Shown: one piece after another, positions 6,230-11,078 of the stretch | How the letters are laid out: every line of letters starts with the position of its first letter | Numbering within the stretch: position 1 is the stretch's first letter | Assembly: GCF_001889265.1 (NCBI RefSeq) | Contig: NZ_CP018151.1 | Coordinates: 2,666,001-2,730,000, forward strand | Source: Microbacterium sp. 1.5R | GTDB lineage: Bacteria; Actinomycetota; Actinomycetes; Actinomycetales; Microbacteriaceae | Direction: 5' to 3' | DNA length: 64,000 nt | The notes under the pieces: model-generated | What the model saw: only the letters and a program-made list of their open reading frames with translations | Told to the model about the DNA's origin: nothing | Database searches by the model: none | Position numbers and translations under genes: made by a program

Positions 6230-6368
6230 GGGGTGTCATCTCCATCCTGCCATCGTTACCCGACCGCAAGGACCGGGGCACGGCGAAAGAATGCAGACAA
6301 CAACTGCTCGTCAAGCATACGGCATCCGTCGGTCAGCGCCGAACCGGGCCCGCTCTCGTCGTTGTTGT

Positions 6369-6374
6369 TAGGCT
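6369..6374 (+). promoter_or_regulatory. Weak -10 candidate for the Hsp90-family gene
   Basis: TAGGCT fits the actinobacterial TANNNT -10 and lies 30 bases before the GTG start. No convincing -35 is seen. Confidence 0.25.
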
Positions 6375-6404
6375 CGGCGGGCGGACGAAACGGGAGGGGG
6401 CGCA

Positions 6405-8228
6405 GTGAGCGCTGACGTGCAGCAGTTCCAGGTGGACCTGCGCGGTGTCGTCGACCTCCTGAGCCGCCACATCTACTCGAGTCCTCGCGTGTATCTGCGC
6501 GAACTGCTGCAGAACGCCCGCGATGCGATCACCGCACGCCGCGAGGTCGACGGGCAGGGCGGGAGCATCCGCATCACCGCGCTGACGGACACCACGGGCG
6601 AGTTCGTCCTGCGCGACGACGGGATCGGCCTGACCGCAGCCGAGGTAGGCGACCTGCTCGCCACGGTCGGCCGCAGCTCGAAGCGCGACATCTTCGACCT
6701 CCCGCGCAGCGACTACCTCGGTCAGTTCGGCATCGGCCTGCTGAGCTGCTTCATGGTCGCCGATTCGATCGTCATCCGCTCGCGCAGCGTCCGGGGCGGC
6801 CCGGCCGTCGAGTGGACGGGCAGCGCGGACGGGACCTTCCGCGTCGTGGAGATCGACGACGATCTGCCGATCGGCACGAGTGTGCATCTCCGCCCTCGTT
6901 TCGACGCCGACGAGCTGCTGCGCCCCGCGGCCGTGCGAGAGCTGGCCACCGCCTTCGCCGAGTTCCTCCCCGTGCGGGTGATCCTCGACTCTCCGAGCGG
7001 CGACGTCGACATCACCCGGCGCGCGCCGTTCCTCGACCCCGCCGACGACATCGACGGCGCCGTGCAGTACGGGCGCGACCTGCTCGGTGCGAGCCCGCTC
7101 GACGTGATCGAGCTCAGCGAGCCGGCCACCGGCACACGGGGACTCGCCTACGTCCTGCCCTACGCTCCCCCGCCGGGCGCCCGCCAGGCGACGCGCATGT
7201 ATCTCGGCAGGATGCTCCTGGGCGAGCGGGTCGACGACGTGCTGCCCGAATGGGCGTTCTTCGTGCGCGCCGTGGTCGATTCGACCGGCCTCGCCCCGAC
7301 GGCGAGCCGCGAATCGCTCGTCGACGACGCGGCCCTCGAGCGTGTGCGCGAGCAGCTCGGTGCCGGCATCCGCCGCTGGGTGCTCGAGCTGGGCCTGCGC
7401 GAACCGCACAGACTCGCCCAGTTCGTGGCGATCCACGAGGTCGGTCTGAAGTCGCTGGTGCGGCACGACGACGAGCTCGCGCAGTTCATCACGCGCTGGC
7501 TGACCCTCGAGACCACCCACGGAACGATGCGCATCGGCGACCTCGTCGAACGATACCCGCACGTGCGATTCGCGCAGTCGGTCGACGAGTTCCGCCAGGT
7601 CGCAGGGATCTCCCCCGGGTCCGAGGTGCTGGTCAACGGCGGCTACCTGTACGACGCGGACCTCGTGCGGATGCTGCCGGAGCTCTACCCGCACGTGACG
7701 ATCGAACTCGTCGACGTGGCCGGGGAGCTCGATCGTCTCGACCCTCCGCCGCTGGACGACCGCGACGCCGCGCTGGCCCTCGAGGCCCGCGCCGGCGGCG
7801 TGCTGACCGCATCCGGCTGCTCCGTCACCGTGCGGTCGATCGACCAGCCCGAACTCGCAGCGCTGTACGTCGCCGACCCTGAGGTGCTGCGCAGGATCGA
7901 CCGCGGCCGCACGAAGGGCATCACCGGATCGCTGTGGGGCGGGGTGCTCGACCGCATCGACTCGACCCTCTCGGCCTCCCGCGACGACGATCTCAGCGCG
8001 CGCCTGTGCCTGAACTGGTCGAACCGCGTCGTGCGCGCGCTCGTCCGCGTGCAGGACGACGCGGTGTTCGCCCGCACCGTGCAGCTGCTCTACATCCAGG
8101 CGCTGCTGGCGGGACACCATCCGCTCTCCGACGCCGATCGCGCACTCATGTCGACCGCGCTCTCGGACCTCGTCTCGCTGTCCGCCGGCATCGAAGCGGA
8201 TTCGATCCCCTTCGACGACGCCCCCTGA
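6405..8228 (+). CDS. Hsp90-family ATPase (HtpG-like, divergent)
   Basis: A 607-residue protein starting at a GTG with GGGAGGGGG upstream. The N-terminal GHKL ATP-binding domain is intact: helix RELLQNARDA with E33 and N37, the DDGIG motif at 71-75, and the lid/glycine motif LGQFGIGLLSCFMVAD at 105-120. The middle domain keeps the catalytic arginine in TASRESL (R302). The C-terminal ~100 residues are helical and presumably dimerise. Length is near that of HtpG (about 624), but the sequence is divergent. It probably folds or remodels a client protein using ATP. The 932-residue TPR protein 51 bases downstream on the same strand is a likely partner. Confidence 0.9.
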   Translation: MSADVQQFQVDLRGVVDLLSRHIYSSPRVYLRELLQNARDAITARREVDGQGGSIRITALTDTTGEFVLRDDGIGLTAAEVGDLLATVGRSSKRDIFDLPRSDYLGQFGIGLLSCFMVADSIVIRSRSVRGGPAVEWTGSADGTFRVVEIDDDLPIGTSVHLRPRFDADELLRPAAVRELATAFAEFLPVRVILDSPSGDVDITRRAPFLDPADDIDGAVQYGRDLLGASPLDVIELSEPATGTRGLAYVLPYAPPPGARQATRMYLGRMLLGERVDDVLPEWAFFVRAVVDSTGLAPTASRESLVDDAALERVREQLGAGIRRWVLELGLREPHRLAQFVAIHEVGLKSLVRHDDELAQFITRWLTLETTHGTMRIGDLVERYPHVRFAQSVDEFRQVAGISPGSEVLVNGGYLYDADLVRMLPELYPHVTIELVDVAGELDRLDPPPLDDRDAALALEARAGGVLTASGCSVTVRSIDQPELAALYVADPEVLRRIDRGRTKGITGSLWGGVLDRIDSTLSASRDDDLSARLCLNWSNRVVRALVRVQDDAVFARTVQLLYIQALLAGHHPLSDADRALMSTALSDLVSLSAGIEADSIPFDDAP

Positions 8229-8230
8229 TC

Positions 8231-8264
8231 TCGCTCCGACCGCTCGCTCCGACCGCTCGCTCCG
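8231..8264 (+). repeat. 13-base tandem repeat, 2.6 copies
   Basis: Units TCGCTCCGACCGC at 8231-8243 and 8244-8256, then TCGCTCCG at 8257-8264. The array fills the gap between the Hsp90-family stop and the TPR gene start. Confidence 0.9.
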
Positions 8265-8279
8265 TTCGAAGGATCCCCC

Positions 8280-11078
8280 ATGACCAGTCCGAAGAAGCGC
8301 TTCTCTCAGCTCATCGAGGAGATCGACCGCACGCCCTGGGGTCCGGCGGAGCAGGCGCTGGTGGCGGATGCCGTCTCGCTCGCCGTCGAGCTCGGCGACG
8401 AGCGGCTCGAGTACGAGGCGCGGATGAGGCAGACCGCCTCCGCGAACATGAACGGCGCGACCGATGTGATGCTGAACTCGTTCGCGTGGTGCCTCGCCCG
8501 ACACGACTCCGACCCGCAGCGCTTCCCCGCCGACCTCGACTACGGCGGCGCCGATCTGATGTGGCAGTTCAAATGGATGGCGTCTTCTCTGCGTTCGTCG
8601 CCCGCGTTCTCGACCGAGCAGATCACCGCGGTCCTCGACGACATGGAGACGCACTATCGCAAGGCAGGGCTCGGCATGAGCGGAGTGCTCACGGCCCGAT
8701 TCGAAGACGCCTGGGACGCCGGTCGACTCGACGACGCCGAGGCTCTGCGCGCGCAGCTCGAGGCCACACCCCGAGACGACCACAGCCACTGCGACGCCTG
8801 CGGACGCAGCCAGTTCGCCGGCTTCTTCGCCGAGACCGATCGAGATGCCGAGGCCATCCGACTCGTCGAGGAGATGCTCGAAGGCGGCTTCTCGTGCGGC
8901 GAAGAGCCCGAGCACGCACTGTCGCGCGTGCTCGTGCCCTACCTTCGTGCCGGGCGCTTCGACGAGGCGAGGAGCGCGCACCTGCGCAGCTACCGGCTCG
9001 CGAAGGACAACCCGGACAACCTGCGGATCGTCGCCCACAACATCGTGTTCGCCGCCCTCACCGGCAACGAGGCACGCGCGCTCGCGCAGGTCGAGCGTCA
9101 CATCGGCTGGCTCGCTCACGACGGACTCAACGTCGATGCCCACTTCGCCGCGCTGGCGGCGTTCGCCTTCGCCCTCGATCGTGTGACCGCGGCGGGTCAC
9201 GGCGATGCCACGGTGCGCGGTGCCGACTCCCCCGCGCTCGAGGAGTTCTTCGGCGAGCACGACGGAGCCTGGGGCGCCGCCGAACTCGCCGCCACCGCGT
9301 GGGCTGCCGCCGAGCGCATCGGCTCGGACTTCGATCTGCGGGACGGCACCGAGGGCCACGCCCGCAGCCTCACCCGCCTGCGCGCTCTCGCCGACGAGCA
9401 CTACGACGTGCCCATCCGTTCGGATGCCTTCGTCACGGCTCCGGACGCGGCGACACCCGACGATCCCGACGCATGGTTCGAACGGGTCATGAACCTCGCC
9501 CAGTTCGGCGCGGAGCACGAGACGTTGCGGGCCCTGCCGCACGCGCTGAGCATCGAGGACCCCTCGAAGCTCGCCGAGCTCCTGTCGATGCGCCTCGGCA
9601 TCCTGATCGCCCTCGACCGAGCAGAAGAGGCTGCCGACCTGCTGCCCGCGCGGATCGATGCCCTGCGCGCCGCAGGCCTCGACGCACAGGCCGATCTCGA
9701 ACTGCGCCTCGGTCTCGCGACCTTCGGCCTGAACACCCCCGAGGCTGCGGCGGCGCTCGAGGACGAGCTCGCGAACACGGACGCTCTGCCCGCATGGTCG
9801 CGCGGAGACCTGGCGATCAGCCGCGCGTCGCTGCACCTGCACGCGGATGAACCCGGCGCCGCCCTCGACATGGCAGAGATCGCGGCTCGCGCCTTCGCCG
9901 AGGCCGAGGACGCGCGCCTCTCGAACACGACGACGCTCGTCGCCATCTCGGCCGTGCTGCAGAAGGGCGACATCGAAGCGGCATCCGCTCTGCTCGATCG
10001 CTTCTTGGCCCAGGACGATCTCAGCATCGGTCATCGCGCGCAGGCGCTGCAGACGCGCGCGAAGGTGCGCGGCGGAAGCGAGTCGTTCGCGGAGGGCGCT
10101 GCGGATGCCGACGAGGCGACCCGTCTTCTCGCCGGGCTCGGTGCGACCACGGCCCTGGCCGCCGCGCACCTGCTCGCGGGGGCGCTCTGGGAGGACGCGG
10201 GCGACCCGGAGAAGGCCGTCACCCGCTACCGGGTCACCTCGCGGCTCGTCGCGCAGGAGGGCGGCGACCAGGCGGGCGCGGAGTTCCGGCTCGCGCGCGC
10301 GATGCTCGCGGCCGGGGACGCCGAGGTGGCGGCCGAGCTGTTCGGACAGGTGCTCGAGCGCGAAGAGCAGGCCGAGGTGCCCGCCGCCTCCCGAGCGATG
10401 ACGGCGTCTCTTCTCGCGCGCGCCCTCGGATCGGCCGGCGAGTTCGGACAGGCTGTCGGTGCATTCGGGTATGCGGGCGAGCTCTTCGCCGAGGCGGAGG
10501 AGCATGCGGACCAGGCGATGGCGCTGACCGAGCGCGCCAAGATCCTCGCCCGGTTCGACGAGCACGCGGAGGCGATCGCGACACTCGAATCGGCATCCGA
10601 GATCGTGCGCCGGGCCCCCGAGGCGGTCGGCGCCCTCGCTGACGTGCTGCACAACCTCGGACAGGCTTATGCGGCCACGCAGGACGACCGCGCCTTCGCC
10701 CTCTTCGACGAGGTCGCCGCGCTCGCTCAGGAGCACGAGGCGGCGTGGCTGCTCGCCGACGTCACCGACTCGCGGGGCCGGGCGCTCGCCCAGTTCGGCC
10801 GCACCGACGAGGCCGTCGCCGCTGCGCTCACCGCGGCCGACGGATTCGCGGCGATCGGGGATGCGGGCTCGGCCGGCGGCTCCGAGCTGTTCGCCGCCCG
10901 TCTGCTGGTCGGCGACGACCGGGCCGCGGACTCCGTGCCGATCTACCGCAGTGCCCTCGAGCACTCCGACGGCTACCCGCCGCTGCAGCAGGTCTCGGCG
11001 CTCGAACTCGGCAACGTGCTCGAGGCGCTCGGACGCCACGGCGAGGCGACCGAGGTGCGGGCACTCCTCGACAGCTGA
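8280..11078 (+). CDS. Large tetratricopeptide-repeat protein, possible partner of the Hsp90-family ATPase
   Basis: A 932-residue soluble, Ala-rich, almost all-helical protein. No signal peptide or membrane segment is seen. Repeats of the TPR type are clear, for example LRAGRFDEARSAHLRSYRLA and AALWEDAGDPEKAVTRYRVT-like units, mostly in the C-terminal half. Near residues 168-212 there is a compact Cys/His cluster: H168, H170, C171, C174, C206, H212. This could bind a metal. The gene directly follows the Hsp90-family gene on the same strand. Eukaryotic Hsp90 recruits TPR co-chaperones, so a functional pair is plausible but inferred. It is convergent with the pyruvate oxidase gene, with only 18 bases between the stops. 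Confidence 0.85.
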   Translation: MTSPKKRFSQLIEEIDRTPWGPAEQALVADAVSLAVELGDERLEYEARMRQTASANMNGATDVMLNSFAWCLARHDSDPQRFPADLDYGGADLMWQFKWMASSLRSSPAFSTEQITAVLDDMETHYRKAGLGMSGVLTARFEDAWDAGRLDDAEALRAQLEATPRDDHSHCDACGRSQFAGFFAETDRDAEAIRLVEEMLEGGFSCGEEPEHALSRVLVPYLRAGRFDEARSAHLRSYRLAKDNPDNLRIVAHNIVFAALTGNEARALAQVERHIGWLAHDGLNVDAHFAALAAFAFALDRVTAAGHGDATVRGADSPALEEFFGEHDGAWGAAELAATAWAAAERIGSDFDLRDGTEGHARSLTRLRALADEHYDVPIRSDAFVTAPDAATPDDPDAWFERVMNLAQFGAEHETLRALPHALSIEDPSKLAELLSMRLGILIALDRAEEAADLLPARIDALRAAGLDAQADLELRLGLATFGLNTPEAAAALEDELANTDALPAWSRGDLAISRASLHLHADEPGAALDMAEIAARAFAEAEDARLSNTTTLVAISAVLQKGDIEAASALLDRFLAQDDLSIGHRAQALQTRAKVRGGSESFAEGAADADEATRLLAGLGATTALAAAHLLAGALWEDAGDPEKAVTRYRVTSRLVAQEGGDQAGAEFRLARAMLAAGDAEVAAELFGQVLEREEQAEVPAASRAMTASLLARALGSAGEFGQAVGAFGYAGELFAEAEEHADQAMALTERAKILARFDEHAEAIATLESASEIVRRAPEAVGALADVLHNLGQAYAATQDDRAFALFDEVAALAQEHEAAWLLADVTDSRGRALAQFGRTDEAVAAALTAADGFAAIGDAGSAGGSELFAARLLVGDDRAADSVPIYRSALEHSDGYPPLQQVSALELGNVLEALGRHGEATEVRALLDS

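Follow-up and report, generated by a model that had tools for sequence, protein, structure and literature searches.

A divergent Hsp90 and a TPR protein encoded as a conserved, co-inherited gene pair in Microbacterium and other bacteria

In a stretch of 64,000 nucleotides from Microbacterium sp. 1.5R (the whole of which we call the window), an HSP90 gene is followed by the gene of a large TPR protein, and the two were shown to form a conserved, co-inherited two-gene unit. We consider it probable that they constitute one functional module, in which a divergent Hsp90 ATPase has a TPR protein of its own as adaptor or regulator. The two genes are arranged as follows:

6405..8228, + strand: HSP90 family protein gene (NF010683 type), 607 aa, with GHKL ATPase N, middle and C-terminal domains
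8229..8279, + strand: intergenic spacer of 51 nt between the HSP90 and TPR genes
8280..11078, + strand: gene of the linked partner, a 932-aa TPR solenoid protein (P0002)

A preliminary description of this DNA had proposed a divergent Hsp90 that keeps its ATPase core, and the analysis bore this out. With 681.3 bits against a curated cut-off of 455, the window HSP90 is a member of NF010683 (PRK14083, 'HSP90 family protein'), a family that is named for Hsp90 alone and whose entry mentions no partner. Against the canonical HtpG model NF003555 it reached 149 bits, below the cut-off of 371, and 142 bits when this model was scanned across its own genome; the same scan returned no HtpG above the cut-off, and the window HSP90 was the sole Hsp90 found in that genome. 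In the predicted fold, compared by VIA-align, the N, middle and C-terminal domains take up the Hsp90 arrangement, and the ATPase residues E33, N37, DxGxG and R302 were invariant in 42/42 HSP90 proteins compared. On this model the protein is a full-length but divergent Hsp90 ATPase, which has its three-domain fold and its ATPase residues in common with canonical bacterial HtpG (NF003555) and TRAP1. A 1568-aa open frame on the − strand (window 6333-11039), antisense to both the HSP90 and the TPR gene, was taken as a high-GC artefact.

The 932-residue TPR protein reported downstream on the same strand was likewise confirmed, as a predicted TPR solenoid, and comparison of loci revealed how regularly such a neighbour is found. 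A TPR homologue was encoded directly downstream and on the same strand in 60/60 loci above the NF010683 cut-off, two of which (L001 and L011) correspond to the window. In contrast, the partner was seen in 0/20 loci below this cut-off, which scored 145-197 bits with NF010683 and were called HtpG-type on these scores; these stretches reach just 269-870 nt beyond the HtpG stop, so that this control could overlook a distant partner. In a larger set of 180 loci, made up of the 20 HtpG-type loci and 160 others, 154 of the 160 passed an iterated TPR HMM (L092 and L093 at only 1e-7 to 1e-8), while counting each place once by hand gave 65/68 places and 77/80 loci, two sets that may overlap in genomes. 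The partner start codon can overlap the HSP90 stop by 4 nt in 79/154 relatives, and a gap is present in 54/154.

Six of the 160 loci failed the iterated HMM. Specifically, both pairs of genome G368 (L090 and L091) have the order flipped, with the TPR gene directly upstream of HSP90 and a 4-nt overlap; their partners are strongly diverged, that of L091 being connected to the family by hhalign (probability 92, E 7e-7) and that of L090 by a similar start only. The NF010683 HSP90 of L100 (genome G712) has a 297-aa TPR neighbour, again with a 4-nt overlap, in which no homology to the window partner was detectable. The stretch of L148 stops at the contig edge. That of L170, titled Schlesneria, which we take to be a planctomycete, ends 55 residues into the partner, and these residues still match the core HMM (E 8.5e-8). 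Finally, in L154 (Dermabacter), one gene intervenes between HSP90 and the partner; judged from its sequence, it reads as NAD-synthetase-like. Thus, all NF010683 places examined had a nearby TPR gene except the contig-end L148.

To the same effect, the two genes occurred together in whole genomes. Among 296 genomes of the class, 36 had an HSP90 above the cut-off, 37 had a strong partner and 35 had both, which amounts to 35/38 genomes having either (Fisher p = 6e-42). HSP90 places adjoined a partner place in 40 of 41 cases, so that the adjacency, which the preliminary description had suggested following across actinobacterial genomes, is not specific to this strain. Conversely, 40/43 strong partner places adjoined HSP90; the three orphans (G171, G204 and a second copy in G756), which may be undercounted with two candidates scored per genome, imply that the partner can work apart from HSP90. 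A strong partner match was one with E up to 1.4e-59, a line placed at a gap in the list: among the matches listed, the next weaker rows lay at 9e-32 and down, all starting at model position ≥420. These rows fall outside the conserved core and seem to reflect TPR similarity of a general kind or fragments of the same genes, and for this reason 145 further genomes of a raw tally of 182 were left uncounted. Chance adjacency of the two genes was ruled out by the 60/60 versus 0/20 comparison, the larger locus set and this co-occurrence.

We compared the inheritance of the two proteins in 143 pairs from 147 loci. The HSP90 and partner-core trees agreed (Mantel r 0.91), and the nearest neighbour was identical for both proteins in 97/143 pairs. 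Vertical inheritance by itself would produce such a tree correlation; more weight falls on the reversed gene order and the behaviour of paralogues. In five two-copy genomes, inferred to be Streptomyces, the partner split matched the HSP90 split in 5/5, and with a mean distance of 0.92 between copies and 0.08-0.15 within, these HSP90 copies are old paralogues. Given order flips, an intervening gene and matched paralogous pairs, the linkage looks selected.

Within the partner gene, the following parts were distinguished:

8280..9365, + strand: conserved partner core, approximately residues 1-362, also present in the Listeria and Paenibacillus partners, which have 320-353 aa
8790..8801, + strand: C171-x2-C174 motif of the partner core, kept in 142/143 partners
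8895..8897, + strand: C206, the third cysteine conserved in the partner core, kept in 142/143 partners
9366..11075, + strand: C-terminal TPR superhelix extension, missing from Firmicutes partners and some actinobacterial ones

The predicted structure of the TPR protein is an all-helical solenoid (mean pLDDT 93.5), a superhelix of helix-turn-helix repeats. Pfam recorded a near miss with TPR_12 (29.3 bits versus a gathering score of 30.1), a relative of the protein (L184) passed the Pfam TPR gathering score with 42.1 bits, and the PDB sequence matches of the TPR protein included no co-chaperone. Partners diverge approximately twice as fast as HSP90 and differ in their C-terminal parts; that of L089 is a short variant of 371 aa. 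The cysteine triad of the core is present in all three Firmicutes partners aligned and in the Dermabacter partner sequence, and the sole exception among 143 partners (L155) has lost all three residues together; P0002 has one further cysteine, C71. In the predicted model, C171 and C174 begin helix 172-185 and C206 comes directly after helix 189-202. Judged from these positions, all three are probably located at one end of a helical hairpin. This C-x2-C...C triad is likely to form a zinc or thiol site.

At some loci, the partner is associated with a YbjN domain (PF10722), which is either fused to its C-terminus or encoded next door (L049/L085, L056, L059/L087, L169 and L202, a lower bound given flanks of only 1.5 kb at many loci). 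The orphan partners L199 and L200, which have no Hsp90 neighbour, also carry or adjoin YbjN, and Pfam confirmed the fusion in L087, L169 and L199. Where fused, the domain sits on the C-terminus of a short TPR core.

Homologous pairs were found beyond the actinobacteria, in Listeria, Paenibacillus and one planctomycete (L170). In Paenibacillus cellulosilyticus, the HSP90 gene overlaps by 4 nt with that of a 353-aa partner. The Listeria monocytogenes HSP90 reached 799 bits with NF010683, and its two partners, encoded in tandem, measure 324 and 320 aa. In hhalign, these three Firmicutes partners matched the actinobacterial family with probability 100 and E 1.2e-43 over residues 10-362; additional Firmicutes partners were found as sequence matches alone. 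In the Listeria locus (L182), the HSP90 gene and the two tandem partner genes are followed by that of a SUKH/SMI1-KNR4 protein. One of the Listeria partner genes is probably lmo0941, since lmo0942 is described as adjoining fri in a passage of PMC3534079, as does the HSP90 gene in the Listeria locus; the function of lmo0941 is given as unknown in a passage of PMC6901971.

In Pseudomonas aeruginosa and on a Xanthomonas vasicola plasmid, the gene of a related Hsp90 precedes one whose TPR matches are weak and sub-threshold. The P. aeruginosa region, which we take to be PA1068-PA1069, and the Xanthomonas pair have the same layout as the window pair, but the Xanthomonas Hsp90 reached 277 bits with NF010683, under the cut-off of 455, hhalign comparisons of the proteobacterial partner gave probabilities of 62 and 0.2, and the core HMM gave no match to it. 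On the Pseudanabaena plasmid ABRG53a (L183), a TPR gene lies two genes on from an Hsp90-like gene, and this locus is a possible defence relative. The Hsp90-like protein of L183 has 877 aa, with a weak, sub-threshold CAP12-type TIR match near its C-terminus, and its neighbourhood contains TIR, VWA, AAA, helicase and TPR genes. The alphaproteobacterial plasmid pSWIT01 (L187) has an Hsp90 gene with no annotated TPR neighbour. A scan of viral contigs yielded six stretches that fit a pattern, none of which was confirmed as a relative. Of 34 matches in phage records, the strongest, which was the one examined further, is an unannotated 6.6-kb faecal contig (L213) with the same pair; it may be bacterial DNA.

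We also inspected the DNA around the HSP90 gene, where one further feature was recognized:

6277..6326, strand not assigned: conserved non-coding block upstream of HSP90, nearly identical between the window and 11 closely related Microbacterium

This block lies around GGCGAAAGAATGCAGACAACAACTGC and may belong to the HSP90 gene or to a divergent neighbour. A 13-nt direct repeat, ctcgctccgaccg, occurs three times in the spacer between the two genes (window 8230-8268), with two changes in the last copy. We found no CIRCE match within the window, one HAIR-like match at 2178, which is at chance level, and no exact match to a SigR-type promoter.

Earlier work on bacterial Hsp90 touches on the family at several points. 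HtpG 'Group C' was described in 2006 as a second-copy group in a passage of PMC1525184, which also assigns two HTPGs of different groups to S. coelicolor; the second has 615 aa and can be likened by size to NF010683-type HSP90. The word 'tetratricopeptide' is absent from the main text of that article. The preliminary statement that HtpG has no known TPR partner of this kind agrees with a 2019 passage according to which bacterial Hsp90 lacks cochaperones (PMC6520445), but has to be qualified, as PA1069 is noted in an excerpt of PMC4053335 to form an apparent operon with an Hsp90 gene. Other excerpts list PA1069 among AmrZ targets, up 3.2-fold (PMC3946381), and among the proteins in a BatR co-IP (PMC13411936), and report that on heat shock PA1069 goes down while htpG goes up (PMC4957987). 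The fall of PA1069 argues against a simple heat-shock role, though homology of PA1069 to the window partner is unproven. The 'PA1068' of PMC9995270 is a strain number and irrelevant to the gene. In a literature search confined to sources other than subscription journals and preprints, we found no paper describing the HSP90/TPR module in the text seen, and none containing exact phrases for an HtpG co-chaperone.

A chaperone module, which the preliminary description had raised as one option, is the explanation that in our view best accounts for the conserved, co-inherited unit, and it probably applies. The TPR core would dock on HSP90 and serve as adaptor or regulator; the partner would thereby bring specific clients and/or set the HSP90 ATPase cycle. 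Being constant, the core is likely to be the Hsp90-facing part, and the C-terminus, being variable, the client-facing part. The latter may choose the client by means of a long TPR superhelix here and YbjN elsewhere, with nothing in this position in Listeria, and the cysteine triad might either stabilize the docking surface or make docking redox/metal-dependent. Eukaryotic Hsp90 has TPR co-chaperones such as Hop, FKBP51 and PP5, and the pair described here likewise combines an Hsp90 with a TPR protein. Unlike the eukaryotic system, however, it has a partner core with its own cysteine motif and an HSP90 without an EEVD-type tail (none in 42/42 HSP90 tails checked), which makes eukaryotic-style tail binding unlikely and speaks against the co-chaperone-like mechanism first suggested by analogy.

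A broader version of this idea, which we put forward only tentatively, is that of an ancient co-chaperone module of Actinobacteria, Firmicutes and Planctomycetes, with a zinc/thiol-switch TPR core, interchangeable client-selecting C-termini and a non-EEVD contact. A contact other than the EEVD clamp would then mean that the Hsp90-TPR partnership arose more than once.

Alternatively, the Hsp90 could be a private chaperone that keeps the TPR protein folded, the latter being its main client or a scaffold on which a client complex is built; the genes would be linked because such a client cannot work without its chaperone. That HSP90 is linked strictly to a single partner fits this arrangement, as do the approximately twofold faster divergence and differing C-terminal parts of the partner, and its ability to occur alone while HSP90 places had a nearby TPR gene save at the contig end of L148. 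We nevertheless regard it as unlikely, because a TPR solenoid predicted with such confidence (pLDDT 93.5) is no obvious obligate Hsp90 client, and because even the 320-aa short forms of Listeria are still linked. Less probable again is a stress pathway shared without contact, in which the operon merely coordinates the dose of both proteins. Co-inheritance fits this, and a YbjN-domain protein joins some loci; in our judgement, however, a linkage that persists when the order is reversed, a gene is inserted or paralogues diverge goes beyond usual co-regulation.

The distribution and chromosomal setting of the pair bear on the remaining alternatives. HSP90 above the cut-off was present in 10/296 genomes sampled across the phylum, 36/296 of the class, 40/299 of the family Microbacteriaceae (41 NF010683 places, all covered by loci but those of G443, G494, G539, G566 and G480) and 31/99 of the genus Microbacterium (32 places, eight of them looked at). 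Such a patchy spread implies that the job of the module is not essential. Among 31 loci (L101-L131), a hand count within each locus stretch found the aldehyde dehydrogenase located downstream of the pair in the window in 27, the TPP enzyme in 19 and at least one of both in 30; L141, L147, L149 and L150, also from Microbacterium, have neither beside the pair. When ten neighbouring ORFs were chosen for Pfam searches, four gave matches (ABC transporter, solute-binding protein, TPP enzyme and aldehyde dehydrogenase) and the other six gave none, one of these being judged not a real protein. The shared neighbours in L101-L131 argue for a chromosomal rather than a mobile module, and it is one that occupies a fixed site in one Microbacterium clade and is often absent elsewhere. 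A mobile or defence island was rejected on the grounds of these metabolic neighbours, the lack of any whole-protein PADLOC match to a defence model for either HSP90 or the TPR protein, and the lack of a confirmed viral relative. An anti-phage or other defence sensor built from a GHKL ATPase and a repeat protein, as also raised in the preliminary description, would suit the patchy occurrence (31/99 Microbacterium), weak ATPase-domain matches to models of TmtA and restriction enzymes, and the Hsp90-like and TPR genes near TIR and helicase genes on the Pseudanabaena plasmid, but is highly improbable, as the PADLOC matches span only approximately residues 8-127 of HSP90, with none on the TPR protein, the viral contig scan gave no confirmed relative, and the neighbours at the fixed site in a Microbacterium clade are metabolic.

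It has long been asked what role Hsp90 plays in bacteria and whether helpers assist it. The near-constant pairing suggests that some bacteria own a dedicated Hsp90 helper, contrary to the usual view that there is none; if the ancient-module reading is true, bacteria do possess dedicated Hsp90 co-chaperones. A closely linked partner of the sole Hsp90 found in an organism would offer a direct route to its clients and to how it is regulated, and could show whether the Hsp90-TPR partnership evolved independently of eukaryotes.
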